Below, piece after piece: positions 22,126 to 63,277 of a stretch of 64,000 nucleotides of DNA. How positions within the stretch are numbered: the stretch's first letter is position 1; each line of letters opens with the position of its first letter. The DNA comes from Paramyrothecium sp. XJ0827. Its lineage: Eukaryota; Ascomycota; Sordariomycetes; Hypocreales; Stachybotryaceae. Under the pieces are notes generated by a model. It saw nothing but the letters and a program-made list of their open reading frames with translations, made no database searches and was not told the origin of the DNA. The stretch covers positions 62,001 through 126,000 of the forward strand of contig JAJFPB010000004.1 of NCBI GenBank assembly GCA_020881915.1, read 5' to 3'. The position numbers and the translations under genes are program-made.

Positions 22126-24660
22126 ATGGGCATGCTGCAACTGATTTTACCCAGTGTAGTTGTTATCATTCTTGCATTGCGATATTTGAGTCTCCGTTGC
22201 GGCCGACGCCTTGAACGCGCCCCGAATCGGCCTAGCCATCGTCACCCCATAGACGAAGTAATCATAAAATTGGATCAAGCTGTTGCACCAACACCAACGC
22301 ATGAGGCGGGCGCCATAGATGCAGATGGTCATTTGTCTCCCCAACCTGAGTACGAGCCTCTTGGAGAACCTGATATTGAGTAATTCTTTTACATACATCT
22401 TACAAGGTCAAGGGCTTACATTTATATAGCATCGTCGCTGTTCATGGACTTGGTTCTGATGCGGATTGGGCGTGGACTTGGCAAAAAGAAGGCCAAAAAC
22501 CTGTTGAGTGGTTGAAGGATTCAAACATGTTGCCTGGAAAGGTCAAGAACGCGAGAATCTTGCGTTATAACTATCATTCGATGTGGAACGTCAATGCTCC
22601 GGATACTTGCCTCGAAGAATGTGGCCGCACCCTCATTCGACGACTACACAGCTTCCGCGCTATGAATAAGAACCGCCCGTTAATATTTATTGGACACAGT
22701 TTAGGTGGTCTTGTCATAGAATACGTAAGTGGCAGACGCAGCTCCTTGGTAATTGCATATTCTAATCGAGACCCTATAGGGTCTGTTGTGGGCGGCTTCC
22801 CAGCCAGAATTCAGATATTTCAGCCAAAATACTATCGGCTGCGTCTTCCTAGGTTGCCATTTATGGGCTCGAAGATGCAAATTTTTGTCCGAATATTCGC
22901 TTTCTTTTTCTCCATAGCCGGATCGCAAATCGGAATCGTGGAGAAGATATCTTACGAAAACGAGGACCTATTTCATAAGCTGACGGACTTCTGCGATTTC
23001 ACAAGAAGAACATTGTTGCCAGTGTCTTGCTTCTATGAGAAATATAATACGGATTACGGGAAGAAGTTTGGAATACCATGGTTAATTAAGGGCAAAGTAG
23101 ATGCTATTCGTTCCCTACACTGGACCCTACTAAGAGTGATCCAGGTTGTGAACAAGCTCTCGGCATCTATTCTGACTGGCAAAATCTTTCCACTTGACAC
23201 AGACCATTTGACTCTTAACAAATACTGTGGCCCAAATGACCGTTCGTTTGTGGACGTTTCCGCGGAGATCGTGGAGATGTGTGAGAATAAAGAAAGACTG
23301 CTTAGAGGTCGTAAAGCGCGTGAGAATCCGCCCTCTTCATACAAGTTTGGGGAAGAATCTGACCCTGGCAATCATAGGATGGCATGAAAAGCACCTCATG
23401 GTACCATTTGGTAGAAATGAGGCTTTCGTTGGTCGCGATCGCATAATACAACAATTGCTCGACAGAATTCATCCCGACGCCAGGGAGAATACATGCCAAA
23501 GGACAGCCATTCAAGGGCTAGGTGGAGTCGGCAAAACTCAGATAGCCATTGAGACTATCTACAAACTCCATCATATAGACCCGCAATGCTCAGTCTTCTG
23601 GGTTGCAGCAGTTAATACTGAGACTTTTGAAGATGCTTATCGAGAAATTGGGCGTAAATTGGGACTACCAAATATCCACGATGACAACGAAGATATGAAG
23701 AAACTAGTACAGAAAGCCTTGGAAGAAGACGACGTCGGCAGGTGGGTTCTCGTGGTCGATAATGCTGATGACGAGCTCCTGTTTCAAGGCGTTTCGATGA
23801 CCAACTATCTTCCTTTCAATCGAAGTGGTTCCATTTTATTCACGACACGAAATCGCCATACGGCTCTCGATCTGCGGGCGGATATCTTTCAAGTTGAGCC
23901 AATGACTAATTCTGAGGCCTCAAGTCTCTTAAAATCAGGGGGTTTGGACGTGGCCTTGATTCAAGGGGATAATTCTGAGAGTACGGACAAGCTCCTCCGT
24001 CTACTCACTAACCTGCCGCTTGCTATTCGGCAGGCATCTGACTACTTGAACAAAAATCATATCCCCTCCACCGAATATGTGGATATCTACGAGTCTAGCG
24101 AAGAGGACATGATGTACCTGTTACGTTGGGCATTTGAGACGAATGGAAGATACGACGGTATTGAGAATCCGGTCATCACAACTTATTTCAGATCATTTCA
24201 ACAAATTCAGGGCCTTGACTCGTTGGCCGCTGATTGTCTTCGATTGATGTCTTTTCTTGGCGACAACCAAATCTATCGCGAACTGCTACCGCTCGAAAGC
24301 GGCCAAAGGAGGATTATAGAAGCTGTGGGTAGACTGACAGGATATGATTTTGTGACGCCTCGAAATATTGATCACTCTATCTATTACGACATCCACCGTC
24401 TCGTACAAGCATCTGCTCGAGCTTGGATGAAAGAGAATGACAAGGCTGGAAGAAATGAGTGGGATGAGTTTAGTGAGCAAGCTTTAAAAAGACTTGAAAA
24501 TGTGTTCTCAGCGTCTCACCCGAGACAAGGGGGTTGTTCGAACTGGCTTGTCCACGCAAATGCTGTATTGGCGTTTCAGCGGGAAACCAATCGAGAAAGA
24601 GCAGGCTCGCTTTTGCAGAAAATCGAGGAAAGCCAAAGAGAGGTGTCAGTTCAGAGGGCT
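22126..24660 (+). pseudogene. Paralogous alpha/beta-hydrolase-NB-ARC NLR, frameshifted and truncated
   Basis: Head-to-head paralogue of the gene on the minus strand, with the same introns. A membrane segment (MGMLQLILPSVVVIILALRY) is followed by HGLGSDADWAW, GHSLGG and, after the intron ending at 22779, a frame reading to TIGCVFLG. There the frame shifts by one base (about 22850-22856), and PF-GSK resumes in another frame. A second exon set leads to the NB-ARC with GLGGVGKT, WVLVVDNADD, GSILFTTRN and an LPLAI motif. The frame loses NLR similarity at about 24620-24660, before any complete TPR array, where the 3' end of a CAS1-like gene begins on the opposite strand. The frame remains open through that gene by chance up to 25161. 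The hydrolase frameshift and missing TPRs argue for a pseudogene. Confidence 0.8.
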
Positions 24661-24663
24661 CAT

Positions 24664-25461
24664 TTATGCGGAGAAGGCCTGGCGACGGGTGTTCTTCTTG
24701 CCACTATTGGAAGCAGCAGCGTTGTTGCTGCCGGCGCCGGCGGCCGGGGCGGCAGCACCTCCCTCACCGGCGATCTGGAAGGCAACGTTACCACCAAAGG
24801 GACCGGCACCGTTGTTGTTGGCGACCTTGAGGAGGCAGAAGTTGGTCATGCCGCTGGCAGCGTCGTTGCCAGTGCACTTGGTTCCAGCGGGGATGTCGAC
24901 CTTGAACTCGGCGTCGGCACCAACGTTGGTGGCACGCTTCTGGAAGCCAACGGCGTGCATGATGACGTCGACGGCTCGCTGGACGACGTTGCCCTTTCCA
25001 TTGCCGACCATGTTGGAGGTGGCAGTGGCCTTGATCCCCTGGGAGTAGGCGCCGGTGCCGGTGGGGTCGATGACGGCGAAGAGGTTGCCGTTGGCGTCGT
25101 TGGCAGTGCCGTCAGAGGTGACAGTGCGCCAAACACCGGTAATGGAGCCGCCGTTGGGTGAGACCTGGGGTAGGGTGTCGCCCATCAGCTTCATGCTCGC
25201 GCCAATGTCGGCAACCTTGAGCTGGCCGCTGGAGGTGGTCTTGCCGAGACCGTCGGTCATGGGCTTGTTGCGGTTGCCGCCAAAGACTGTGGTATCCGAT
25301 TCAGTGTCGTCGTTGGCACCGAAACGGGGGACGGCATCACCCTTGATGCCGAGAGCAGTACCGGAACCACCAGCGTCACCAGTGACGGACTGGATCTTGC
25401 CGTGGGCGCTGACAAGGCCGACAGTGGCGGCAAGAACGAGGAGGACAGACTGGGGATACAT
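24664..25461 (-). CDS. CAS1/GEgh16-like secreted appressorium-associated protein
   Basis: Single exon, 265 aa. A signal peptide (MYPQSVLLVLAATVGLVSA) is followed directly by HGKIQSVTGDAGG, so the mature protein probably starts with His. The body has the family phrases GTALGIKGDAVPR, TDGLGKTT, GDTLPQVS and GPFGGNV, and ends in an Ala/Ser/Asn-rich tail. The family (Egh16/GAS/CAS1) is expressed in infection structures of plant and insect pathogenic fungi and affects penetration; the biochemical activity is unsettled. The start at 25461 is chosen because it gives the signal peptide; the frame upstream is open but lacks other support. The promoter region has a TATA-like AAATATAGG near 25670. The 3' flank is NLR sequence, so its own terminator region was replaced by a rearrangement. 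Confidence 0.85.
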   Translation of the reverse strand: MYPQSVLLVLAATVGLVSAHGKIQSVTGDAGGSGTALGIKGDAVPRFGANDDTESDTTVFGGNRNKPMTDGLGKTTSSGQLKVADIGASMKLMGDTLPQVSPNGGSITGVWRTVTSDGTANDANGNLFAVIDPTGTGAYSQGIKATATSNMVGNGKGNVVQRAVDVIMHAVGFQKRATNVGADAEFKVDIPAGTKCTGNDAASGMTNFCLLKVANNNGAGPFGGNVAFQIAGEGGAAAPAAGAGSNNAAASNSGKKNTRRQAFSA

Positions 25462-27374
25462 GTTTAAAATATCGTCTTTTGATCGTAAAAACGGGTGGTT
25501 ATAGGGGGTGACAAGTGTGGAATTAGCGTTCGTATGATGGTAGAGAAGCGAATAAAGGGCAGATCGGATCAACCGACTGAAGAAGATTAGATGTTTTGGA
25601 GAGAGGATGAGAGACGAGCAGAACAGATGATACGTGATGCTAAGAGAAAAGAGAGCCAACGCCGGTAAATATAGGCTTTCTCGAGAAAACGTTAGCCCAT
25701 CCTCTGGAAGACGAGCGGCGGGTTTGGGAGGTGATGCCCACATGCCAGCGGGGCCCTCATGGGGCTAGGCAGGCTCAGGTAACAGTTGGGATGCCTGATG
25801 CGATAGGTTGGTCGAGGGGCCGGCGGGATTTGCTGAGGGGCTGCTGGGTTGAGCGACGCTTCAGAGCCGGACAACAGGGGACTGTGCTGTGGTGTTGATC
25901 CACTCGTCGCCGTCACTATGGTCTTGGGAGACCAGACATGTTTGAACATCGAAACGGACTCCTTCAATGGTACGTGCGGTCTGGCAGCAAGGCCCCTGAG
26001 CAGAGCGAAGAGAGGAGACCAATCAGACTAGCTTGAGCGAACGCAAGCAGAGGAACCCCGGCCTTGTCGTTTGCTTGGCAGCGTCGGCAAATGCTGTGGA
26101 GATCAGCCAGAGTTCGTTTCCATGTCTGTGCCAATTCTTTTGCCAACACGGGAAACAGGTGAATGCAGAAGCCATGCCGACAATGACACTTGAACTGGAC
26201 GTGACATGCCAAGGGACTGGACACAACACATAATGCTCCCGAGGTCGAGTTCATCACCAGTCTACATCGGCGGGCCTTGTGCGCTGGTCTCGCGACATGT
26301 CCCATCAAAGTCAACAATCTGGAAGAGGGAGATTGGCCCAGAGATACGGCGAGGGTACGGGTAAAGACGGGGGGGATTGATCTTGTCCACCAATAATAGC
26401 ACCCTAGCCTCTGCGATGAGTGGGGATCTGGGAGATCGACGGGGACCCCTCCTGAAGCACGATGCACGACTCGGAAGCTTCCGAAACACTAGCGCAGCAC
26501 GCGCCGCTTGTTTCAGCGCCGCATCGCGGCTAAGTCGGCAGTCGCTCTGTCCAAGCAAACAGAGCAGACATCCGAGTCCAGGGGCGGGCGCCAAGGGGCA
26601 AGGCATCTCAATGTTTCGCCCGCGGGCTCCGCGGGCCTGACCGAGCTTTTGTTGCCTGTGCCGATCCCGCCCTTGGCAGGCATCGCCGGGAACGACTGCC
26701 AAGTGCACAGCATGCTCGGCAACGTCGGCCTCTTCAGACGGGTGCCAAGGGCAGCCTAGAAAATCACCATGGTCAAGTCCCCCACAACCGCTCAATCAAG
26801 ACCGATCCAAGGGCAAGACAATGGCGGCTATGCTCCACAAGGTGATAACCCCCAGACACGCGGGTTTGATGTGCATGAGGATGAGTCCTCCCAGCTCCTT
26901 TGCATTGTTGGTTGCAAAACATAGCAGGACAAACCCTTCATCATCAGCAAACAACTCCCCCGGCTCCGACATATTCCACATTCCAGGTCCCGAGGCATCA
27001 CGCGTCTTGACAAACCAAAAGCTCGGGTCCTACTCGGCACACGAGACGCTCTGAAACCTGTTCCGTAAAGTGGAAGTCAGTTGGGCTCCTCCCTCGCTCG
27101 TCACCATCCCCACCAAAGCATAGCTGCTACACCGCGAGAGCACAGAGCGCGATGCACACTTTTTTCACTCTCAGACCGGTTTAGTTTCGCATGAAGCGTT
27201 TCTAATAGTAGCCGAACACACATTACCCAAGTCAGCCCATGTTATTATTGCGCCTTTGGTTCCTGGATAGCGCGGTGGAAGTGTAACGAAGCCTGGATTG
27301 GTGTATAGATTGTACCTGATCAGGTTCTGGTTGTTGTCCAGCTGGAATAGTAGCCACGCTCTATACACGACATC
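25462..27374. other. Long intergenic stretch, no supported gene
   Basis: Upstream region of the CAS1-like gene, then GC-moderate sequence with only chance open frames on both strands (for example 26262-26795 minus, rich in Gly/Ala/Arg without domain). Nothing recognisable. Confidence 0.45.
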
Positions 27375-40698: not shown

Positions 40699-43600
40699 CT
40701 ATAGCTGAGCCTGGATCAGCTCTGATCTAATTAAATCTTGACCTGGGTACTCGGAGGCGGTCCCAGGTAACTCTCTCACACCTCCAAGATCTATAACAAT
40801 TTTCTCCAGAGCCAGATCAGGGCTCATAGTTCTATATCTAAGCACATGAGCTCCAGCGTCCAAGTTATGTAAGGCATGCTCGCGACGCCACGCGCCGTCT
40901 TTGACGGCAACAACCCAGCCAACAGGTAAACCACCCTTATTGGTGATTTCAAGTAGAGGCACTACTAGCTCAGCCGACTCATCGAGCTGAATTTCATACG
41001 CCTTTTCTTTCTCTTGGTTTTCCAGAACCAAGGTAAAGTAGAGCGTAACTGTGGCCATTTCAAGACTATTAAACGTATAGAACGGAACCTCAATATAAGG
41101 CACATTTGAGCCAGCTGCGGGGGATAACTCGATCGCACCAGTACGTGTGCGGCCCAAACGTGGGAGGAGGCGGTAATTCTTTTGCACTTCGTCTTTTAGC
41201 GCAATATGACCAGCGTTAATGCTAATAGTGCGGTCAGACTCCACAAAGCCTTCGAAAGACTCCAGCACATGGCGATTATCAACAGGGAGATGCACCTGCT
41301 CGTAGGCTCCATCTGTCGAGGATAGTTCGATTTGCACTATTTCGTTAAAGTTCTCTGGAACCTTGTTCCAATCGATTGTCACTACCACGCGCTGGTCTTC
41401 AGGATCATTGGGGTCAATATTGCCCGATGTGGCGGACAGCTTGACCCAACCATTCTTCGCGGCTGCGGACCAGTTCACCTTTTGAGCGCCACGACAATAA
41501 ATCTCAAAATATCTCTGAGGGACTGAGTAGGGACTGAGCTGAGGTAGGGTTAAACCGGGAACTAACTCGCCTCGAGAAGGGTGTGTACGTAGGTATTCTT
41601 CATTGCCTAAACCCGGCCAGATTCCCACGTGCCCTTCGACCGCGATACCCATTTGTCCTGCAACCGCGGACGAGTTCTGTCGCTTCTGAATAAAGCTTAG
41701 GCCAGTAATCATATCACGAGTAGGGTCGTGCCAAGTCTCCTGCGCATAGCCGAGATGTGGCTGCTTCATGATGTGGTTCCATTTCTTTCCGCTCCACGGG
41801 TTGTTGTGATACAATTCTTGTAATGTAAAGTCTTCATCAAATAGATTAAGAACTTTCTGCGCAAGTACATTTGTTGTATTTCGCCGCTGTCGACCATAGA
41901 TAATATTTCGTCCTTGAGAAACTCGGAGCTCTGTATTAATGCGTGAGGCCTTGATTGGGTGAAGGACTAGTTGGAAAAAGGCAGGTTTATATGGTGAATC
42001 CATAGTCTCGAATAGTGAGTCGGCTTGTTGTTCAAGTTGTATCCACTCGGACACTAGTGACTTGGCCTCAGAGTAGTTGATGATAGAAAATGTATCAGGC
42101 TCAATATGCTCATGACGGCGGAGAGCCATAAGAGAGTCGTGCTTAGCGATTAGATCTGCAACCTTTGGCCCTAGTAGCTTATTGCCAAACTCTCGTTCTG
42201 CGTATTGGTCGAAGAAGTGAGGAATTGTGCGCTCTTTGACGCTGCTGATATTCCAGGCAAGGGATAGCGCAAAAGATATAGCTGACTCCAGTGGTTTGAT
42301 ATCACCAACGTTGAAGACCCAGATCTTTCGTATGCCATTTCTGTATGCGGCAGTCAACTGTTGGTGGACTTTGCCCTGTTCACTGTTTAGTAGCACCCTT
42401 GAGATGGATAGGAGTGTGACCAACGGTGGAATTGCAGTTCATCCATTTGTAGCTTCGTGGGTGGCCGACATACTCCATATGGTAATATAACTGCATCGTT
42501 AGCGGCTCCGACTGAATGTATAGTAAGGCTTGACATACCCCAAAGCCGCCACTGCGTGGCCACTCGGACTCGGAAGGGAACCTTCGAATATTTCCAAAGT
42601 TGTCATCCGCGAATAAAAGCGTCACATCTTCAGGTATCTCCAAGCCCTCCTCGTACTGTTGTAAGACCTCCTTATACAGAGCCATGAGCTCTAATCGTAG
42701 GTAAGTAAATAGATCAACCTGGATAATGGAAATGACTCACGAGGAACTCCATCTGGGCAGCCGTATACGTCTTCTATTATTTCTCTTTGCGTAAGTAGCA
42801 CATCCTTCAGGGTAGCCTGTGGGTTATTGGATTGCATTCCAGTATCGCCTTCTCCACGCATTCCTAGAGTGATAAACGATTCATAAGGCTTTGCGCGTCT
42901 GGTACCCTCTTGGAAATGCTCCGCTAGTCTTTCCTTATTCTCATCCCATGCCCAAGGTCCCTTATTACCAACCCGCCACTCAGCCATACCTCTCTGCATA
43001 GGCTCGTGGTGCGAAGTTGATACAACAATGCCATAGGCATCGGCAAGGGATTGGTTAAGGGGGTCATCGGTAAAGAAAGAGTTTCCTGGCCAAGGGAATC
43101 CAGACCACATAGCCGGCCAGAGGAAGTTTCCCTAGCACTCGTCAGATTGATTAGATTCGTGCTATATTGGGCATACCTCACCTTCATACGCAAAATTAAC
43201 TCAAAGACAGTCTTATAAAATTCCGAATTATACACAGGGCCAAACTTATCCTTTACCCAGGCAGTAAGAGAAGGTGCCTCGTCATTGATAAAGATACCAC
43301 GGTACTGTATACTTGGCTCGCCATGCACAGTCTTAACCGGAAGGGCATAGATTTCATCGCGTGGCGTTATGGCTACATCGGCCCACCAGTACCAGCTGGT
43401 CATGGTTAAGACAGTGCAACGAGGTTGTATATCCTTACTTACGGTGAGACACCAATCTGTTCGGAGAGGGTATAGGCTCCGAAAATAGCAGCACGTTTGT
43501 CGCTGCCGGCAATGAGCAGCACACGCTTAGCGCAGGGCCAAGGGCTCTCAATGAGCTCCGTCAGAACCTCTCCCATTTTCCTTGGATGTGTCTGAAGTCG

Positions 43601-51047: not shown

Positions 51048-51755
51048 CTACTCAAGCACGACAGTGAACTCGAAAGGCTTTGTCGCCAACGTATATTCCA
51101 AAAGAGGTGGAGGTCCTGAAATGTTGTTAGGAGCTACCATTTCACAGGACCAGGACCTATACTTACCACAACTTTCACTACCAAGGCCGTGGTGATCAAG
51201 GTCGAGTCGAACTATAAGCTCATCTTTCGCCAAATCTTTCAGCTCATGTGGATGCTTCGCCTTCTCTAGATCTGCAACAGTATAGTGGGATGCCTGGAAG
51301 TTGAAGCCTTGGCTCTGACGAGGAAAGGTCGCCTGTACACTGGCTCCTGTTTCTGAGGCAGAAAACTTCACCCAGCGCGTGTCGGTGCGGTTTCCATATT
51401 CCTGAGGTACCTCATAACCCGCAGAGATCTGGTCAATAGTCCGTGAGTAATTGCCAAATCTCTGTGCGTGCTTCTTGTCCCTGTAGCTCTCGCCAGGTCC
51501 ACGGCCAAACCAAGACACGGTGTCAAAGTCTGCCGCCAAAGCCAGTTCAAGACCAAGGCGAGGAAGAATCTTGGGAATGCTGCGACCTTGGGGCTTCCCT
51601 TGTACGTGGATGATTACCTTTGCAGACGTAAAAGTGTAGGTTGTTGTTGTATTGAGAGACCATTCAAGGCCTAGAGGTGCCACTCGCTGACAGTTCATTA
51701 TGTCCCCACTATTGGGTTCTTTGAGTTCAACTTCAGCAGAACATCGCTGGTTCAA
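51048..51755 (-). pseudogene. GH2 beta-galactosidase C-terminal fragment
   Basis: The minus frame encodes the C-terminal beta-sandwich (beta-galactosidase small-chain type) of a family 2 glycoside hydrolase: LPRLGLELALAADFDTVSWFGRGPGE, SYRDKKHAQRFGNYS, VPQEYGNRTDTRWV and a closing DLDHHGLGSESCG. The N-terminal sugar-binding, immunoglobulin-like and catalytic TIM-barrel domains are absent. Upstream of the frame the sequence changes abruptly to a + strand P450 pseudogene at about 51756. The piece is therefore the tail of a broken gene, with the break just before 51755. The stop codon at 51048 looks native. Confidence 0.78.
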
Positions 51756-52910
51756 GCACTACGTCTTGAACCATTCGTGACATTGGTTTGCTATGGTGCC
51801 TGGCGTGACATCTACAACATTTACTTTCATCCCCTTCGAAATTGCCCAGGGCACTTCCTCACATCAGTATCGGACTTCTCGAAGCCATGGGTTCTGAGCA
51901 CCGGGGAGAATCCAGATTCTCACCCATGCAGCACATGGAAAGTACGACTCAGTCATCCGCATCGCTCCCAATATCCTCTCAATCAATGATTCGTTGCTTC
52001 TCCCTGCCATCTACTATGACAAAACCAATAAGACCGATACCTACGCCACGGGTCTCCTGGGCGCTGCGCTACCACCATTCCAGACGCTCGACCGGAGGGA
52101 GCATGCTCTGGAGAGAAAGCGGGTTGCCAACTCTCTTTTGCTGTCTAACCTCATTAAGTTGAAAGGGCATGTTAAACAGCGCATAACGGAGTGTATGGCT
52201 ATTGTTGGTGAGAGATATGGTGCTACAGGGAAGAAGATGGACTTTTCGGAGTGGTTACAGCAAGTACTCAAAGGTCGTCCCTTAAACCGATGGGCAATTT
52301 TTACATGATTCACAAGATAATTTGCCTACGACACAGTGTGTCAACTTGCCTTTGACCACCCGGTTGGGTTTGTGCGCGGGGTCGTGACATATTGAATCCC
52401 ATCCAAAACTTCCACACTATGGCACCATTCGCCGCTGTAGTTGGCCTACTTCCTTGGCTGTGTGTCCCTTTTCTGCAGAGTCCTCTCATGCAGGACTACT
52501 TTATGCCAAACCTGGGGGAAACTGGCGTCGGAACGGTCATGGCTGTAGGCCTCTGCACATTTCTACCCGATATCACATGGGACTGACAGAAATTGCTCAA
52601 AGTTTCGAGATTCGCTCTCAAGGGAGTGGTATGAAGATCTCAGGCACATCACAAAAGGGGTTTTCTGGACAACATCTTGGCCTCTAAGAAAGGCGATGAA
52701 AGCCAGATAACCCTTGATGAAGGGAAGGTATCAGTACCCTCCTCAGGTGGACAAGATGAGTGTGCCATGCTTGCCCAACAATGTCATCTTGGGCCAACAT
52801 ATCCAACTGTTACACCACATCCTTGGCATTTTCGCGGCCGACAGTGGAGCAAGCATGGTTGATTCCATTGGCCGTCGCGCGAAACTCCGCTTCAGTCTCC
52901 ACCTGTGATA
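51756..52910 (+). pseudogene. Cytochrome P450 pseudogene, 5' and 3' truncated
   Basis: The + strand reads DIYNIYFHPLRNCPGHFLTSVSDF (proline-rich hinge region), then in shifted frames IAPNILSINDSLLLPAIYYDK, TDTYATGLLGAALPPFQTLDRREHALERKR and GKKMDFSEWLQQ, and later IQNFHTMAPFAAVVGLLPWLC. Frames change repeatedly, stops occur near 52312 and 52394, and no convincing I-helix, ExxR or heme motif follows. The start abuts the GH2 fragment, so the N-terminal anchor is also missing. It resembles P450s that oxidise polyketide or terpenoid intermediates, but no substrate can be inferred. Confidence 0.7.
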
Positions 52911-53652: not shown

Positions 53653-55605
53653 CTAAACTAGCTGAGCGGCCATGGGAGGATTCCAAACAATTTTGGCTTC
53701 TTCTTCAACGCGTTCCTTGCTGCAAGAATAACACTTCTTCCAATCGGGACGCAGGACAAACCATGACGCGCAGTGACTGCACTGCCTCATGAACCTGTCT
53801 CTTGAAGTTTTATCTTTGTTGTAGACAAGAGAGTTATCATGGGAGCGAAGTTTTCCAGCCCATCGAACGCTGCCCACGGGGTTCGAGCTGAGTGCGACCG
53901 CCTTCATGTTATCGGCGAATTCGATTAGTTCTTGCACAACAGTCTCTGGTACGGGTTCTTCCAGTGGGATGGGTCCAAGAAGCTCGATAACTTTACGGGC
54001 GACTGTATCATATTCTGGTACCAAAGAGCCCCACTTCCAATTCTTGGCGTAAACAATGAAATTTTGAGGCGTCAAGGTTAACGTTCCGTCCACATGAACG
54101 GGGTCATAGCCAGCGATGACACCGGCAAAATATTGCCACATACAGGCAATCTGAGCGCCGAGTCGTGGGTCGCGGAAGCAATGATAGTTGAAGCGATTCA
54201 TCTGGTCGAGTGCTGGAATCAGTCGTGTCACAAACTCGTCATATGGCGCGAATGTCTTGCGAATAAAGGACTCAACTGCTTCGGTTCTGTCTGCAGCTTC
54301 GGCGCCATTGAGTGCTTCATGAGTAAGTTCAGCGGCATATGTCGAAGAGGCCATGCCCACGTTGATTCCGGGTGAATAAAGTGGATTAGTAAAACCGCAA
54401 GCGTCTCCAATCGCGAGCCAACCGGGACCAGATATCACAGGGGATTGGTATGTAAGGGTCTTCCGAACGAACCAGGTTGTTCCAGGCCCATAGAGATTCT
54501 CAATAAGCTCATGGCTAGCCATGAACTCATTAATCAGAGGATACTTCCTAACGAAGTAGTTGAATTTGCGTTCCGCCTCGGTCGATCCATACGCGGACAT
54601 ATCGTCCGGGTACTTGACATCGTTACGTGCAGCAACCCCGATGCTCGTAACCCAACGATACTTGAGCCCAAACATTTTAGCGAGTTCTTCAGTGCTTGGT
54701 ACTTGATCACCAGGCACATCCGCCTCGGCGCAATCAAGCAAATAGGTCAGCATGTCCATCAAGTTGGCAATAGGATTGTCCTGCCATGAGAGTATACGAA
54801 TAACCCAAAACCATCCTTCTGGGAAACAAAGGTGGTTTGTATGCGATCCCTCATAAAGGCGGTAGTTGCTCTTGCTCTCATCTGGGTACGTAAAGTAGCC
54901 CCAAAAAGCATCTGTGTTGAATCCTTCGAAACGATGAAGTGAAGCATTCTTAGAAGCCAGTTGACGGAATCGCCCTGTCGCGTCAACCAAGAGGGATGTG
55001 CTGACCGTGTCTGTTGCTTCCCCCGCTGCCTTGCTTTGGCCAATGACGATTTTGCTATTTTGTACTCCGCCATCCACTTTTGAGGAAGCAAAGTCAATCT
55101 TTCGTCCATGATAAACATTGATTCCGTTCCTTTGAGCCATGAGGGTGAACAAAAGCTCACTCATTGGCCTCTCCAGCTGGTATCCGCTAAGATAATGACC
55201 AGGCGTGCCATTAATGAGGAAGTCGGAGTAATTCTTTTCATTTTCTCGGTCATGGAAGTAGAAAGCCAACCCATCCTTTACACCGAAGATGCGCAAGAGG
55301 TACTCTCCTGTGAGTCCATACATCTTGCACCACATTGCAAACACAGGAAGGGTGCTTTCCCCAATTTTATACCCTGGCTTGTTGCTCTTTTCGATGAGTG
55401 AGATTTTGAAGTTATTGGGCTTATGTTTGGCTGCGTGAATGGAGTAGATGAGTCCGTGGATGCCACCACCAGCAACAACTATATCGCTTTTGCTCGGAAT
55501 CTCGGACCCTGCTGCATTATTGGAGTTTAAGACCTGAGCATCACTCAAGTTGCCTGCAGCAGCTCTTTCAGAGAAGGTGTGCTTGGGGGTAGGCGTAGTT
55601 GCCAT
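53653..55605 (-). CDS. Flavin-dependent halogenase-like monooxygenase with C-terminal zinc ribbon
   Basis: Single exon, 650 aa from ATG 55605, chosen because relatives begin near the FAD fold; the frame is open further upstream. FAD-binding GGGIHG (46-51), GESTLP (82-87), DATGRF (208-213) and GDACGFTNPLYSPGIN (400-415) place it with the flavin-dependent halogenase/monooxygenase group. A GWFWVIRI stretch (264-271) keeps the W-x-W-x-I core of the halogenase signature but has Arg where Pro is usual. The C terminus has two CxxC pairs (CSHC 609-612, CYSC 625-628), a probable zinc ribbon not normal for halogenases. It could chlorinate or hydroxylate an aromatic ring, and the salicylate synthase 3.4 kb away suggests salicylate or a derivative as substrate (inference). 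The gene appears intact. Confidence 0.85.
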   Translation of the reverse strand: MATTPTPKHTFSERAAAGNLSDAQVLNSNNAAGSEIPSKSDIVVAGGGIHGLIYSIHAAKHKPNNFKISLIEKSNKPGYKIGESTLPVFAMWCKMYGLTGEYLLRIFGVKDGLAFYFHDRENEKNYSDFLINGTPGHYLSGYQLERPMSELLFTLMAQRNGINVYHGRKIDFASSKVDGGVQNSKIVIGQSKAAGEATDTVSTSLLVDATGRFRQLASKNASLHRFEGFNTDAFWGYFTYPDESKSNYRLYEGSHTNHLCFPEGWFWVIRILSWQDNPIANLMDMLTYLLDCAEADVPGDQVPSTEELAKMFGLKYRWVTSIGVAARNDVKYPDDMSAYGSTEAERKFNYFVRKYPLINEFMASHELIENLYGPGTTWFVRKTLTYQSPVISGPGWLAIGDACGFTNPLYSPGINVGMASSTYAAELTHEALNGAEAADRTEAVESFIRKTFAPYDEFVTRLIPALDQMNRFNYHCFRDPRLGAQIACMWQYFAGVIAGYDPVHVDGTLTLTPQNFIVYAKNWKWGSLVPEYDTVARKVIELLGPIPLEEPVPETVVQELIEFADNMKAVALSSNPVGSVRWAGKLRSHDNSLVYNKDKTSRDRFMRQCSHCASWFVLRPDWKKCYSCSKERVEEEAKIVWNPPMAAQLV

Positions 55606-57127
55606 AGTGTCAGTTGAAACAATGAATGAGTAGTCAAGGCTGGCGAGCGCTTTGATTAGGCTTTTAGCGGACTGTGATCCTGAGGTACTCTCAATGACCA
55701 TCAAATTATCTGGAAAGAGGTATGGTTTTATATGCACTGCCCAAGGAGAGGCAGAGTTATGTGTCGAGACTTTTACGGAGACGTAAACCAATGGTTCAAT
55801 CTATCAATTTCGGCATTCTGTTTCAAACATGATTGAAATCAGGTTGCTCCTTCCACTTACGTTTCGACAAGGCCAATCATACGAGCGGTTACATTTTGCC
55901 GATGCAATGCTAAAGCATACCACAATTTTTTTCCTCAAGGCGCCAATGTGATCGCATCGGCATTAATAATCTCCGGTGCCGTGTGTAGCGTAGCAATGTT
56001 CTCCCGGTTGCGTACCTACTACGCAAACAAAATGCCGGACGAAAAATCAACGCATCCGAATTTTAACCACCTTCCTTTCTATTATCAAGTTACTCCTTAC
56101 CTTTATACACCGGGTTACAATGAGCGGTGGTATGAATCAGCTGTTTCAAACAGTAAGGCGGCTCGAGGCGTTTGCAGCACCTCAAACTTATGACACTTCT
56201 ACATTCACATGATGCGGTGTCACAACCGATGGATTGTCTTGAGCGTTTATGTTATTATGGAGAAAGAGCATAGATAAGTGTCTCTTTGATATTTCTACTT
56301 GCTTACTAAACCATTGAATTGCTGGACATCTTTATACTCATAGGAATACACAAAACACTGTTCAAGGCGCAGTTGTCATTAATTTCAACGTACATAGGAG
56401 ACGCTATCTAAGGCTTCACTACCGCAAACTATGAAATGTTAGGACACGGAATTTCCAAATGCCCCTTAATCTTTCTCGGAGCCTGTTTCAGAGGGCCAAA
56501 CATGGTTCTTGCCAGAGCCAAGCCCACCAAAGACAGGGATTAGCCACATAAACATGCATGAACATTTAAAATATCTGCCTAGAGTGGTACGAAAGAGTAC
56601 TAAGCGGCGGTCTGATATGGGAGGCAATTATAGCCTTGAAAATAATAGAAGCCATCTAAGCTAGGGTTCATCTTCAAACGCAAGTTTACCCGATTATTCT
56701 TTGGGGGTTGCTTCATTCGGGTTGACTTTGAAACCAGGTTCGAACGGCATTGGCAAGTGGCCGAAATCCAGTCCCGCATGGTTTGGTCCAAACAATATGC
56801 TCTCTGTTTGTAAAACTGTTAAGTGTACGTAGTGAGGAGAATCCTCAAATGCATCCATGACAGGGTCAAGGGTCAAACACAAATGCGTCGAATAATCATT
56901 CAGCAGGTCTATAGGTGTACCGGATGTTCCAGAAATTTATGGTGGGCAGATTTGATCCCATGAATGTTGAATAAGCAGAAGGGGAGGGGAGGAGAAGAAA
57001 CATATAAGGGAGGTTGTGTTTCTCAAGGGGGCACATGACCCAGCTGCAAGATCAATCCCCGCAAGACTCAAGATATCAGAACCAACAAAGCTGACAATCC
57101 TGAGCATTTAAGCATTTACTCAACACC
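55606..57127. promoter_or_regulatory. Divergent region between flavoenzyme and DAHP synthase genes
   Basis: Holds the promoters of both divergent genes. A TATA-like ACATATAAGG lies near 57000, about 125 bp before the DAHP synthase ATG. A minus-strand open stretch at 56700-56915 (LTLDPVMDAFEDSPHYVHL) has protein-like composition but no clear start, so a small extra gene cannot be excluded. A + frame at 55948-56193 is unsupported. Confidence 0.35.
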
Positions 57128-58534
57128 ATGTCCGTAATTGTCGCGAGCTCTGTCAGCCAAAACTCTGGCGCAGAACAGTATATTGTCAGTATTTCGCTTG
57201 CATTAATGCCCGACTACCGATTAAAGAGACCTTGTGACTCTATGGTACCTAACCATGACCTAAGCTCACCTACTCACAGCGTAGAAACGAGAAGAATGAG
57301 GAAAAATGGTGTGGCACTGACGATTCGCGAAGTGAGTATATTTTGGGCTAATCTTCCTTGAGTGTTATGTCGCCCTAGCTGAGCATCCCAGTTCATGACT
57401 ACAGTCGTCTTCTCCCGCCCATCCTCTTACAAGAAAATATTCCGCTCAACCCAAGGGCGAAACAAGTTGTTGTCCGCTGTCGAGAAGAGATGGCAGAAAT
57501 TGTCCAGGGTAGCGACTCTAGAGGTCGAATGCTAGTTGTGGTTGGTCCCTGCTCAATACACGATCCCAAAGCAGCTCTCGACTACTGCAATCTTCTCATC
57601 AAAGCAAGAGAAAAGCATAAAGATGAACTTCTGATCATCATGCGGTGCTACCTCGAGAAGCCACGCACAACCACTGGCTGGAAGGGTCTTATCAATGACC
57701 CAGACATGGACGGTAGTTTCAGAATAAACAAGGGACTGGCTCTTGCACGGAAGTTACTGCTAGAGCTCACATCAAAGGGCATGCCTGTCGCTAGCGAAAT
57801 ACTTGACAACATCTCGCCGGAATTCTTTGCTGATCTATTGTCCGCTGGATTTATTGGTGCCCGGACAACCGAGAGTCAGATACATAGGGAGCTTGCCAGT
57901 GGCCTTGGCTTTCCAGTTGGCTTCAAAAACGGCACTGATGGCGCTTTGAGCGTTGCGATAAACGCAATCACTGCCTCTAAGCAGCCTCATCACTTTCTAT
58001 CGATCGATAAGCACGGGAGTGCCGTCATAGCCAGCTCAGTCGGCAATGAAGACTGCTTTGTTGTCCTACGTGGTGGCAGCAGTGGCACCAATTACGACGC
58101 AAAAAGCATTGATGACGCTCATGCAGCTCTCATCCGCACAAACCTTACTCCTAGGCTCGTGGTTGACTGCAGTCACGGGAACTCCAGTTATAATCACAAG
58201 AATCAGTTAAGAGTGGTAGCTGACTTAGCAAGGCAAGTGGGAAGCGGAAGTGAAGCGGTAATGGGCGTAATGTTAGAAAGCAATATAAACGAAGGTAAGC
58301 ATGTCTCCCACAACGAAGAAAAAAATCGTGCTTACTTTTCCAGGTAAGCAACAGTTGCGTCCTGAGGGGAGGCATAGCCTACAGTACGGGGTTAGTGTCA
58401 CGGATGCGTGTATCAACTGGGCAGATACGGAAGCCGTGCTCAGTCAGCTGGCAGAAGCGGTAACACAAAGGCGTGCAGTTCTTAGAGCGAGCGCCGCCAG
58501 TCTCAGTGAAACTCAAACGCTGGCAGTATGGTAA
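57128..58534 (+). CDS. Type I 3-deoxy-D-arabino-heptulosonate 7-phosphate (DAHP) synthase
   Basis: Three exons (57128-57331, 57379-58294, 58344-58534) give 436 aa. It condenses phosphoenolpyruvate and erythrose 4-phosphate, the first step of the shikimate pathway (cytosol). Motifs in order: VVGPCSIHD (metal Cys 126), EKPRTTTGWKGLINDP, IGARTTESQIHRELASGLG, GFKNGTDG, DCSHGN (His 334), LESN (Glu 368) and SVTDACINW (Asp 394), so all four metal ligands are present. The usual HVILRGG phrase reads FVVLRGG (Phe 295). The N-terminal 70 residues, which in Aro3/Aro4-type enzymes help bind Tyr or Phe, diverge (SIPVHDYSRLLPP in place of the normal GYDPLLPP-type start). This hints at altered feedback control. 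It is convergent with the salicylate synthase, 490 bp away. Confidence 0.92.
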
Positions 58535-59023
58535 CCTGATGAGCCAGGTAGAAATGATTTGAGGGACTTTTTGCGTGTGTTGATCTCACAGATGATGACC
58601 TTACTGCGTGATTGTACGGCATTACGAAGTCGATTATTCAAGTTCCTACGAGACCATTTTCAATTGAAAACATCAACTATATAATAGACAGTGGTATGAT
58701 TGTTCTCTCCACCTTGGTCTGGTCAACAGCGTAACGAATAAACCGAGCCACGACAGCACTAGTCACTTATGGACGGCAGTGGCGCGAGGACCAGAAAGAT
58801 TTGGGATATAATGAAGCCTCTGGGGCAAATTCTCTGGGCACATTGTATTCCAAAATGTCATCACATCCCGTATCGAATCTGCAACGCGGCTGAGCTTTGC
58901 ATTATATGATCGTTTCAAAGTTTTCGGAGAAGGCATGTGGCTCAGAGAATCACGGGAAGATGAATTTATGTGGCTCCAAAACAGGAGCTAAAAGGCTGGT
59001 GCTCGTCAGATAGTTCTGACACA
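58535..59023. other. Convergent 3' flanks
   Basis: About 490 bp between the stop codons of the DAHP synthase and salicylate synthase genes; no other gene seen. Confidence 0.6.
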
Positions 59024-60382
59024 TCAAATATCTGATCCATTCATCATCTGACCCTTTTCTTCCCTCACAACATACGGAGCGATGCTAGCTAGCTTTTCCT
59101 GCGTTTCCATAAATTCCCTTTGAGGGTCAGACTGCAGGACAATCCCGGCTCCTGCTTGAATCCACCGGCGAGATTTATCCTGGAAAGCGGTGCGAAGTAC
59201 CAATGCCGCTTCAAGAAAATCCTTTCCATCAATCAGAAGGATTGCGCCAGAGTATAGCTCTCGCGGTTGCGTTTCCAGTCGCTGGATTGCCTCCAATGCG
59301 AGCGGCTTGGGGACTCCAGAAGCAGTAATGGAGGGGAAAAGAACATTGAATGCATCCCATGCATCCTTCTCAGGGGCTAATTTGCCAGCCACACGGGAGC
59401 CGAGATGTTGGACGCTGCCTCGAGGCCGGATCGACATGAAATCCTCCACAACCACAGAGTCCTCCAGGCAGATCCGCTTTAACTCGTCGACAGCCTCTTG
59501 AACAGAAATGACGTGCTCGACAACTTCCTTTGGATCGTCAAAAAGATCTTTGCGCAGCTTCTCGACCTCAGCTTCTGTCCCTTCTCGAGAGCGCGTGCCT
59601 GCCAGAGGCTCTGTGACAACTCGTCCATGTTCATACAGCATTACCAGCTCCGGGCTAAAGCCGGTTGCTTGATGTCCTTCGTGGTTTATGGTAAATGTCC
59701 TTGCGGGGTTGTTTGAGCGCATTCCAAGATCCAGTGTTCCGAGCATATCAATGCTTTCGGCCAGCTCAACAGCACGTGAAGCAATAATCTTCTTGTACTG
59801 CCCAGCCGCGATCTCGGAGAGGGCTTTCTCAACGCGCTCAACGTAATTGTCGGCATGCTCCACCGTGTTGATGCCGATTGGAGGGGCGAAGTGTTTTGTT
59901 TTTTTATGCAGACGAATTGCGTCGCAAACGGCTCTAACTTCTTCATCATTGTCCCCTTTAACCACGACACGCTCGACTCCGAAGCTGATTTCGACACGAG
60001 GAACGCAAAGAGTTAATAGTGGCCACTTTCCTACATTGAAAGTCTGTCCTTGAGAGTGGGCTGCGTAATTGAAGCCCGCATAACCGAAAACCTTGCCATC
60101 CAGTAAGCTGTGATTCGCAAGGAACTTTCGGGCTACGTCGGCAATTTGGCCTTGAATCTCCTCCGTTATAATGCCCTCTGAGGAAGTCACAGTAGCTGAG
60201 CTGCCCGTAGAATGTACGACGAGCGAGGATCGATTGCCAAGGCCAACATGCCAATGAGAACCACGCTCATACGCGTAGTAGTCGCTGTGCCGGTGCGAAT
60301 TGAGCAGTAACACTACCGATTCCAAAAGGTCGGCTTGCCCAGGCTTCAGTTTAAAGCTTGTTTGGGTCTGATAGGTGGCCAT
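59024..60382 (-). CDS. Salicylate synthase (MbtI/Irp9/YbtS-like, chorismate-utilising)
   Basis: Single exon, 452 aa, near the length of bacterial salicylate synthases. The chorismate-binding fold shows YKKIIASR (general-base Lys about 198), GFSPELV (Glu 245), EPLAGTRSREG (258 on), PKEVVEHVISV (Glu 286, Glu 289), RGSVQHLGS (His 326), FPSITASGVPK, ELYSGAILLIDG and the metal pair in QREFMETQEKL (Glu 423, Glu 426). The HLGS, SGVPK and LYSGA contexts match the bifunctional enzymes that turn chorismate into isochorismate and then salicylate plus pyruvate. They match anthranilate or aminodeoxychorismate synthases less well; no glutamine amidotransferase partner is present. Such enzymes are typical of bacterial siderophore clusters, and a stand-alone intronless copy in a fungus suggests lateral origin. 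The gene is undamaged. Confidence 0.9.
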   Translation of the reverse strand: MATYQTQTSFKLKPGQADLLESVVLLLNSHRHSDYYAYERGSHWHVGLGNRSSLVVHSTGSSATVTSSEGIITEEIQGQIADVARKFLANHSLLDGKVFGYAGFNYAAHSQGQTFNVGKWPLLTLCVPRVEISFGVERVVVKGDNDEEVRAVCDAIRLHKKTKHFAPPIGINTVEHADNYVERVEKALSEIAAGQYKKIIASRAVELAESIDMLGTLDLGMRSNNPARTFTINHEGHQATGFSPELVMLYEHGRVVTEPLAGTRSREGTEAEVEKLRKDLFDDPKEVVEHVISVQEAVDELKRICLEDSVVVEDFMSIRPRGSVQHLGSRVAGKLAPEKDAWDAFNVLFPSITASGVPKPLALEAIQRLETQPRELYSGAILLIDGKDFLEAALVLRTAFQDKSRRWIQAGAGIVLQSDPQREFMETQEKLASIAPYVVREEKGQMMNGSDI

Positions 60383-61170
60383 CTTGTTGATGTATTGCCT
60401 AACGGTTGTAAAGACAGAAGTAGATCAAGTGCTCGTATAGTAGTCAAGGGTAGGAAGGTTATCACTTGGATTGTTGGCAACGCGTCGACAAGGTTAATAA
60501 CATCATGAATATGAGGGCATGGAACGTATAAGAACCGACGATGAACCTATGAGATTACAGAAAGGCTCAGGCTAGGGTCACTAGGGTGAACAATTGGTGA
60601 AGGGAGAATTATCAAACTCTTACTCTACTATCGCGACAAAGTAACGCGTCGTGCAGTAGAGTTCTGCGAACCTTGCACGTCCCACAGGACGTTAATTCTC
60701 AAACGCGATTAGCACGGCGAATTTTTCGATTTTTTCCCCAATGCCACCAAGGACAAAGCCTCTTGACCTCCCGAGCCGGCCACGGCGCCACACCGCACAT
60801 GGATGAGTAGCCCGGACTGAATTTTTTTCTGACAGGGATTCTCCAACTTCAACTCACTGCGAACATGACTTTAAATACCCCGTCCGAAGGAGAATCTTTT
60901 CCCCGACGTCCACAAGCAATTCGATGCGATGCCTTGGCAACAGACATGCCACAATCAAGTTTCTCACAGCACTCGTCACTTTGACACCCCCTCGCTACCT
61001 TTCTGCTTCGTCTACGCACGCCCTCCTTCACAAAATATTATGTTCAAAAATCCGGGACGGTGGTGAGCCGTGTAATGCTGGCACTTGCCGGGTAATAATT
61101 TTTTTGATTCTAGGCTAGGCTATGCATTCTCATGGAGTTCGGAAAAGGTGTCTTTGCGTCGTCCTTCCGT
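60383..61170. promoter_or_regulatory. Upstream region of salicylate synthase gene
   Basis: About 790 bp between the salicylate synthase start and the stop of the next regulator. It presumably carries the salicylate synthase promoter; no clear CGG-inverted-repeat operator could be singled out by eye. Confidence 0.35.
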
Positions 61171-63277
61171 TCAGCTTTGCAACCTTCCCAGGAAATCTCG
61201 GGCAGAGATGTGAATGTCTTCAAACTTTCTAAGTTGCAATAACAGCACATGAGCATTACTCTCTAGATCTTCTGTCCCCTCTATATGATCCATGTTGGTG
61301 TTTTTGGTCAAGAAGTTAACAGTGTGTGTAAGTATAGTTGGTACAAAAGGATGTATCTGTGACATTTATATTAGTCCTGTTTGAGCAGACTTTGTCGTTC
61401 ACGACCGTATACTGACCTTGAAGCAATTCACAAGAGGCATAGCACTCGTCAGGTCGACTATATCAGCGGCCGCTTCATATGCCCTTTGTTGACAGTTCTT
61501 TGTCATCGGAGTGGATTCAGGGGCTCGAGATGCCCATGAAGAAGCCGCATCGCTAAGATGAATGATGGCACTTAACCCGAGGAGGTGATTGAACATGCGC
61601 ATCGTATCAGGCCAGCCTTTTGAGTTTGCCGCCAAGGAGTCCAATCGGCTTTCCAGAGCTTCCATGAGCCAACTATGTCGTCTCCAAAACTCGACGGTCT
61701 CTTGGGTGCGGAGAAGCTTACTATCAAGAGCCGCTGCTGCTGCTAGTCGCTTATGAGTCAAACAACGGCCGTATATGGTGACGAATATAACATTTTCCGA
61801 AAAAGCGGGTAATGCAGTGGAGTTGGCGTCGTCGATTACTCTTGAAAGAAAGTGGACTTTGCATGTATCCGAGCCTTGGTATCTAGCCTCCACAGCCGGC
61901 AAGCGTACGTGAGCCTTAGCGCAATTAGAAACCAGAAATCTAAGTACTAGTTCGAAGAGATTTGCACGCGATGACTTACCAATTCTTCATGGAGCGTAAA
62001 GAACATGCTGCCGTGCGCATTGATAAGGCGGTCGAAGCAATATGCCACCCAGAATGTCCTTCTTTTCTCTTCTGCCAATACCCAGGTGCTGTCCGGGTCA
62101 GGTGAATCAGAAGTTTCAGGAAGAACAATCGTTTGTGTCGCAAGATCTGAAGCCTCAGACTCACTGAAGACATCCACCGTATGCAAGCGTGCCCGTTGAA
62201 CGAGTCTGAATATCCGGGCAGCAGTAAGATGTGCCTGTTGACAATCGATGCAGACGAACTCATAATAGGCTATGAGCAGCCATGCTTGTATTTGCTCCAG
62301 ATGCACTTCCCCCGTTGTCCAGAAAAGATCGTGATTGTCTCCGTCCATCATGTATAAGAGCTGTTTGGTGTGAGCGTATAGCTTCTCGCCTAAGCTGCGA
62401 AATTGAGCAGATAAAGCCGCAGAAAGGGTCCATGTAGCGAAGCGGAGGCACGCTCGTGCTGGAGGAAGATTCTCATGATTCGCCCAGGTGAAGAAATTCC
62501 TTTTATGAATCATGGGTATAAAGACATGAACCCTATCCAGGTATATAGCATCCCTGTAAATTATTCACCGTAAGCGAGGCACTTTGAGACACACTACACC
62601 TTTAACCTACAGGTCTGCCTTGGTCGTTTCTGATAAGACAAAGCCTTCCTTGGATAATTTTGAGGAAGGGTCGTAGTGAGGGCACCCGTTAATTCCGAAG
62701 GCCCCGTCAGGTGCAACAGTATTCTCTACATCATCGCATAGTTGAACCCCGGTGAAAATCGAGTAATCATCAAGCCAAGCAACTGAATCCGGGACTGTGT
62801 AGGGGTTCAAGCCTAGATCGCTTGCCATATCAGAGCCATGGGTCGGCTGAATGATCGCAGCTCCTTGGACGCTCCGAACAGAGTGATGTCTAGAATCTTC
62901 ATTCCTTTCGTTCCCAGGGCTCAGCCCGAAGTTTCTTATTTGAGTTGACTCTGTGCCTTGTTGATTGATCGTGGACAGATCTGAATTATGTTGTGAAGCA
63001 AGCTTTTGTTCGAGAGCCGCTAGAAGATATGAGTCGATATTCGCCATGGATGCTGTTGGAGCCTGGCTTGCTCACCGATCTGAGCTTTCAGCTGCTTGAT
63101 TTGCCCCTTTTTTGGGCCTCGCTTCGGTCTTTCATTAATAAAAACGCACGGGGACTCGCTTCCGACGCATCCTCCGCATCTCGGCCGAATACGATCACAC
63201 TTAGATTTGCGACGGCGGCACTGCTCGCAGGCTACCTCATTGTTCGATCTTCCAGTCGTTGCCATGACTGTCTGCAC
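61171..63277 (-). CDS. Zn2Cys6 transcription factor of the salicylate/halogenase-like group
   Basis: Multi-exon gene with all junctions in frame. Exon 1 holds the zinc cluster CEQCRRRKSKCDRIRPRCGG with cysteines at about 17, 20, 27, 34, 37 and 44 (2-6-6-2-6). A coiled-coil-like linker (KGQIKQLKAQI joined to AALEQKLASQ over the first intron) precedes a variable region and the fungal_trans domain (DAIYLDRVHVFIPMIHKRNFFTW, AWLLIAYYEFVCIDCQQAHL, EKRRTFWVAYCFDRLINAHG). The protein ends VLLLQLRKFEDIHISARDF. Introns are readable near 63016-63068, 62561-62611, 61917-61980 and 61349-61413. It stands at the right edge of the group on the same strand as the salicylate synthase, so it is the obvious candidate regulator (positional inference). 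Start 63277 or the in-frame Met four codons later (63265). Confidence 0.85.

Follow-up and report, generated by a model that had tools for sequence, protein, structure and literature searches.

The gene group

What would a fungus make with a halogenase, a salicylate synthase and a 3-deoxy-D-arabino-heptulosonate 7-phosphate (DAHP) synthase encoded side by side? The question is raised by a 64,000-nucleotide stretch of the genome of Paramyrothecium sp. XJ0827 (bases 62,001–126,000 of contig JAJFPB010000004.1, our contig C10, in an assembly of 51.8 Mb and 15 contigs), which we call the window. A halogenase gene (− strand), a DAHP synthase gene (+), a salicylate synthase gene (−) and a Zn2Cys6 regulator gene (−) lie at window positions 53,653–63,265. 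An earlier sequence-only reading had described four intact genes in 9.6 kb, and all four were indeed present and complete, at essentially the coordinates proposed, with open reading frames throughout and ordinary GT..AG introns in the two genes that have introns. The features are as follows:

53653..55605, − strand: MalA-type flavin-dependent halogenase, 650 amino acids, a single exon without intron
55606..57127, no strand: upstream region common to the halogenase and DAHP synthase genes, which diverge from it, from gene geometry
57128..58534, + strand: class I DAHP synthase, 400 amino acids; exons 57128–57184, 57280–57331, 57392–58294 and 58344–58534
59024..60382, − strand: salicylate synthase (MbtI/Irp9 type), 452 amino acids, a single exon
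61171..63265, − strand: Zn2Cys6 regulator, closed by a stop codon; exons 63265–63076, 63019–62611, 62553–61980, 61914–61417 and 61356–61171

The gene group is real and conserved in fungi; the enzyme families are known ones, and the novelty is in finding them combined. On balance we favour the view that it is a small biosynthetic group, in which DAHP supply, salicylate formation and halogenation of the salicylate ring would be combined with a local regulator.

The salicylate synthase

The salicylate synthase scored 543.7 bits against TIGR03494 (cut-off 325.15), the next family reaching 222.4 bits, and its match to Irp9 was 419 bits. At 20 of the 20 positions compared, which we take to represent the active site of MbtI, the residues were identical. 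The score margin and the MbtI positions led us to reject an identity as anthranilate, isochorismate or aminodeoxychorismate synthase. Together, the TIGR03494 match and the conserved residues suggest that this one enzyme converts chorismate to salicylate, as predicted from its likeness to Irp9/YbtS and MbtI of bacterial siderophore pathways. Three other chorismate-binding matches in the genome were considered as further copies and rejected, since they score at most 99 bits to P0121, compared with 673 bits for the gene described here.

The setting of the gene differs from that of its bacterial counterparts. Among 80 bacterial loci with a salicylate synthase (the best 80 of 98, 8.5–21.3 kb each), none held a relative of the fungal halogenase or DAHP synthase at E 1e-5, in a search that DAHP synthases of class II and remote halogenases would escape. 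A fungal salicylate synthase is also drawn on the map of the subrubine (sub) cluster of Aspergillus terreus; in the section of that report that lists the conserved sub enzymes, however, it is not among them and no halogenase or DAHP synthase is named (PMC13107220).

The halogenase

The sequence-only reading had left the flavin enzyme as an oxidase or halogenase. Its halogenase side stood, and can be refined to a predicted MalA type. The protein matched PF04820 with 44.7 bits (cut-off 21), its best solved relatives were the MalA' entries 5wgr–5wgz (E 1e-281 to 1e-279), and residues 69–713 of the open reading frame (ORF) aligned to 5wgu, a similarity over the full length of MalA. MalA and MalA' (Malbranchea aurantiaca, malbrancheamide) are of the same halogenase type (P0052, 60% identity over 99% of the query). 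The closest relative noted, P0001 of Paramyrothecium foliicola (Hypocreales, Stachybotryaceae), is 90% identical over 94% of the query.

Flavin halogenases and monooxygenases have a common fold, and halogenase activity is here read from sequence, so the enzyme might have lost halogenation and instead hydroxylate salicylate or a relative. However, three features that the clade halogenases have in common with MalA and MalA' are kept in 9/9 rows of our alignment A2: the catalytic lysine corresponding to Lys108, the GWxWxIR stretch and four cysteines near the C terminus. We regard a loss of halogenation as very improbable.

The phylogeny of the halogenase was examined in a tree of 61 rows, made up of 59 of the first 60 matches (P0056 omitted), the query and one paralogue from the genome. 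The query fell in a clade of nine with a Shimodaira–Hasegawa-like approximate likelihood ratio (SH-aLRT) support of 99, together with six halogenases linked to a salicylate synthase, P. foliicola P0001 and P0046, which lies on a 2.7-kb contig. The motif G[YF]DP[VL]H was found in the query and in 7/120 of the halogenases listed, all inside this clade, whose member P0024 is without it. MalA itself belongs to another sub-clade. Its Glu494, according to a review, is needed for efficient substrate binding (PMC9144378). The equivalent position is non-acidic in 8/8 aligned clade members (P0001 being outside the alignment) and is followed by a two-residue insertion relative to MalA; the query has Ile there in A2 and a gap in the larger alignment, while 5wgr has Glu and 5wgu Asp. 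Absence of Glu494 was rejected as a mark of the clade, because most of the wider halogenase family also lacks it.

These positions bear on whether the substrate of the halogenase is an indole compound, as it is for MalA, with the DAHP synthase serving tryptophan supply and salicylate a separate product of the neighbourhood. Kinship to MalA fits this idea, and a DAHP synthase would feed tryptophan as well. Since Glu494 is missing in most of the wider family too, its absence speaks against MalA's own substrate and not against all indoles. The clade also goes together with a salicylate synthase, and an indole substrate seems to us improbable. The group halogenase differs from MalA in its partners too, being paired with a salicylate synthase and a DAHP synthase and not with an alkaloid assembly line. 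In malbrancheamide-type clusters the halogenase gene has genes for a non-ribosomal peptide synthetase (NRPS) and a prenyltransferase as neighbours; none was recognised on visual inspection of the ORFs listed for the window and for 20 kb rightward, where no dedicated family search was made. The same review puts the number of MalA analogues in fungal genomes at 277 and calls the remainder undiscovered (PMC9144378).

Other halogenase genes were seen outside the group. A second MalA-type halogenase at C10:5366681-5368474 (67% identity to P0001) falls in a sister clade with P0029 of Stachybotrys elegans, and a third, more distant halogenase-like locus at C9:684027-685971 (44–49% identity) has an in-frame TAA in its first part, where an intron is possible. 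P0001 as annotated is 1009 amino acids long, with the halogenase joined to an acyltransferase domain (PF01757). The acyltransferase part is probably a gene-model fusion with a neighbour; no acyltransferase (PF01757) gene was matched beside the group in the source genome.

Linkage in other fungi

Homologues of the three enzymes were then compared for co-location, using the 120 matches listed for each enzyme from totals of 148 (halogenase), 1859 (salicylate synthase) and 8000 (DAHP synthase). In Monosporascus sp. 5C6A (Xylariales), the consecutive locus tags DL771_003558, DL771_003559 and DL771_003560 are a halogenase, a DAHP synthase and a salicylate synthase, in the same order, on a 339,052-base contig. 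Among the matches listed, these are the second-best halogenase, the third-best DAHP synthase and the best salicylate synthase. Co-location elsewhere was read from contigs of identical base count. Six contig sizes were common to the halogenase and salicylate synthase lists, with organism or source agreeing in 6/6: Monosporascus, Microdochium trichocladiopsis, Microdochium bolleyi, and contigs of 46,055, 14,613 and 10,119 bases. All six linked salicylate synthases are within the top 11 matches. Halogenase and DAHP synthase were found on equal-sized contigs in P. foliicola and Monosporascus. A third size in common between these two lists, 2389 bases (P0061/P0311), was set aside as a coincidence, because 2.4 kb is too small for both genes and the sources differ.

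The salicylate synthase tree (121 sequences) contains a clade of eight (SH-aLRT 85) consisting of the query, the six halogenase-linked enzymes and that of Microdochium nivale, and a wider clade of 12 (SH-aLRT 99) adds two Neonectria sequences and one each from Fusarium albosuccineum and Colletotrichum. The halogenase and salicylate synthase distance matrices for seven genomes were correlated (r 0.67), with 38/5040 permutations as high.

Do the genes merely happen to lie together in a region that is poor in genes and partly decayed? The position of the window, 62–126 kb from the contig start, and some broken genes in the region would suit this explanation. It is already contradicted, however, by the Monosporascus locus tags, which are consecutive and show the same gene order in a fungus of another order, and by the concordant trees; we give it scarcely any credence. 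Linkage of the enzyme genes beyond the source genome makes the group more than chance, and close homologues were found linked and not scattered: all three enzymes are linked in Monosporascus, and the halogenase and salicylate synthase recur as pairs. The sequence-only reading knew of no characterised fungal cluster with such a set of genes, and none was described in our full-text literature searches, whose coverage leaves out most subscription journals.

The DAHP synthase and transfer between orders

The DAHP synthase scored 423.8 bits against TIGR00034 (cut-off 173.2, main exon ORF) and 254.7 bits against PF00793 (cut-off 25.5), and the protein given by its exon model is similar to Paramyrothecium P0241, beginning with the start codon; the query used in the homologue search had an amino end unlike that of this final model. 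With the group copy, three DAHP synthases of class I were found in the genome, one of the ordinary copies being 86% identical to the Stachybotrys elegans enzyme. The closest homologue of the group copy is labelled AMT16 in its source annotation. AMT16 belongs to the Alternaria AM-toxin cluster, and is thus a precedent for a DAHP synthase within a fungal cluster. However, this automatic label is also carried by ordinary DAHP synthases, and it is no evidence on the product of the salicylate group.

At the equivalents of T162, Q166, A176, S195 and T228 of yeast Aro4, the cluster copy is unlike all 120 other aligned sequences (118 matches and two from the source genome). It keeps Aro4 K229 and has Ser at 226, like the 1og0 chain. 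The same five changes occur in the P. foliicola enzyme; in that of Monosporascus only 176 and 228 are changed, T162, Q166 and S195 being retained. Q166K and K229L make Aro4 feedback resistant, and 162 and 195 may have some role. Both substitutions have been engineered into production strains (PMC9614166). The cluster enzyme may have an altered allostery, with relaxed inhibition by aromatic amino acids; because three of the five positions are unchanged in Monosporascus, we offer this as a hypothesis.

To place the cluster copies among fungal orders, a tree was built from 40 hand-chosen DAHP synthases (13 from Xylariales, 12 from Hypocreales, 12 others and the 3 cluster copies), with order labels assigned from the organism names. 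The cluster copies form one clade (support 100/99) on long branches, joined to Hypocreales (97/99). Placing the Monosporascus copy alone with Xylariales was rejected by the approximately unbiased (AU) test (p-AU 0.001), so that this copy is no local duplicate and descends from a cluster ancestor that it has in common with the Hypocreales cluster copies; at least the DAHP synthase gene therefore passed between fungal orders. Placing all three cluster copies with Xylariales was not rejected (p-AU 0.202), which leaves the direction of transfer unfixed.

The proposed pathway

The family assignments fit the path proposed in the sequence-only reading, in which DAHP input would be followed by conversion of chorismate to salicylate and by a halogenase step, under a regulator. 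The key steps would be as follows. The extra DAHP synthase would bring erythrose-4-phosphate and phosphoenolpyruvate into the shikimate pathway at higher flux, and the salicylate synthase would convert chorismate via isochorismate to salicylate. The MalA-type enzyme, using reduced flavin adenine dinucleotide (FADH2) from a general cellular reductase, would then halogenate the salicylate ring. This would most likely be a chlorination of C5 and/or C3, the positions to which the phenol directs. The Zn2Cys6 protein encoded next to the enzymes would switch the group on. We infer in this scheme what each enzyme does, that the halogenase accepts free salicylate, which halogen is added and where on the ring, and that the regulator controls the group; a halogenated salicylate is the likely product.

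Several observations weigh against this scheme. The pathway, activities and product are predictions from the genes; the substrate of MalA is an indole alkaloid, and that of a halogenase is not readable from its sequence. The group contains no flavin reductase and no transporter gene. The Microdochium contigs exceed 3 Mb, so pairing there shows the same contig and not closeness. Besides the source genome, all three enzymes are seen linked in Monosporascus only; among the matches listed, the DAHP synthase was found on linked contigs only there and in P. foliicola, whose salicylate synthase is not among the 120 matches listed and may be missing, wrongly annotated or of a length beyond the limits. 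Finally, five members of the clade of 12 salicylate synthases (the four outside the clade of eight, and Microdochium nivale) showed no halogenase on an equal-sized contig among the matches listed, two of these five contigs being shorter than 12 kb.

The regulator and the surroundings of the group

The regulator gene, which matched PF00172 and PF04082 in Pfam, is intact, has five exons and adjoins the enzyme genes. The earlier claim that the group has its own regulator holds in this respect, its membership being putative and by position only. Searches with 9- and 10-base words and CGG-N-CCG pairs, run without a background control, gave no convincing common promoter motif for it, the upstream region between the halogenase and DAHP synthase genes included.

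The claim that genes all around are decayed stood in part. Fragments occur on both sides: on the left, a beta-galactosidase small-chain fragment at 51048–51758 covers positions 87–228 of a 248-position Pfam model, and some pieces look P450-like by eye, although Pfam does not recognise them. On the right, an M20 peptidase-type gene (L005:818-2244, Pfam matches on the main ORF) looks open by eye, contrary to the claim, and the gene for an adenylate-forming enzyme (L005:3453-5540), lying in several frames with stops between, looks broken.

The latter gene raises the question whether salicylate is a building block, the halogenase acting late on a larger salicyl product whose assembly enzymes (an adenylating enzyme or an NRPS, for instance) are encoded elsewhere. 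Pieces of an adenylate-forming gene to the right of the regulator would agree with this, as would MalA, which halogenates late in its own pathway (PMC9144378). However, that gene is in pieces, visual inspection of the listed ORFs over the window and 20 kb rightward showed no assembly-line gene (no dedicated search was made), and the 10,119- and 14,613-base contigs with both enzymes leave little space for a large partner. We consider a late halogenation of this kind unlikely, and continue to favour direct halogenation of salicylate.

Other features of the window were recorded. An 80-amino-acid open stretch between the halogenase and DAHP synthase genes (56694–56936, −) looks protein-like by eye; Pfam gave no match for it up to E 0.1. 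Two NB-ARC (STAND/NLR-like) ORFs lie at 18774–20627, with TPR repeats, and 23212–25161, the end of the second being overlapped by an Egh16-like family ORF (24664–25764, −). At 40699–43526 a glycoside hydrolase family 115 match extends over two ORFs (model positions 1–52 and 244–335), between which introns are possible.

Implications

The four genes lead to one specific prediction, a fungus that would make a halogenated salicylate directly from chorismate. Within the halogenase family, they point to a MalA-like sub-clade that has its own sequence signature and probably has a simple phenol as its natural substrate. With the DAHP synthase tree, passage of the group from one order to another can be put to the test. 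Chlorinated salicylates are synthetic activators of plant salicylate signalling. More tentatively, as a possibility that we do not lean towards, the group may be a self-contained pathway to chlorosalicylate, free of polyketide synthase and NRPS, passed between Hypocreales and Xylariales and fed by an allosterically changed DAHP synthase, with a product that would mimic the plant immune hormone. A natural fungal source of halogenated salicylates, if true, would matter for plant–fungus interactions and for the enzymatic production of these compounds.

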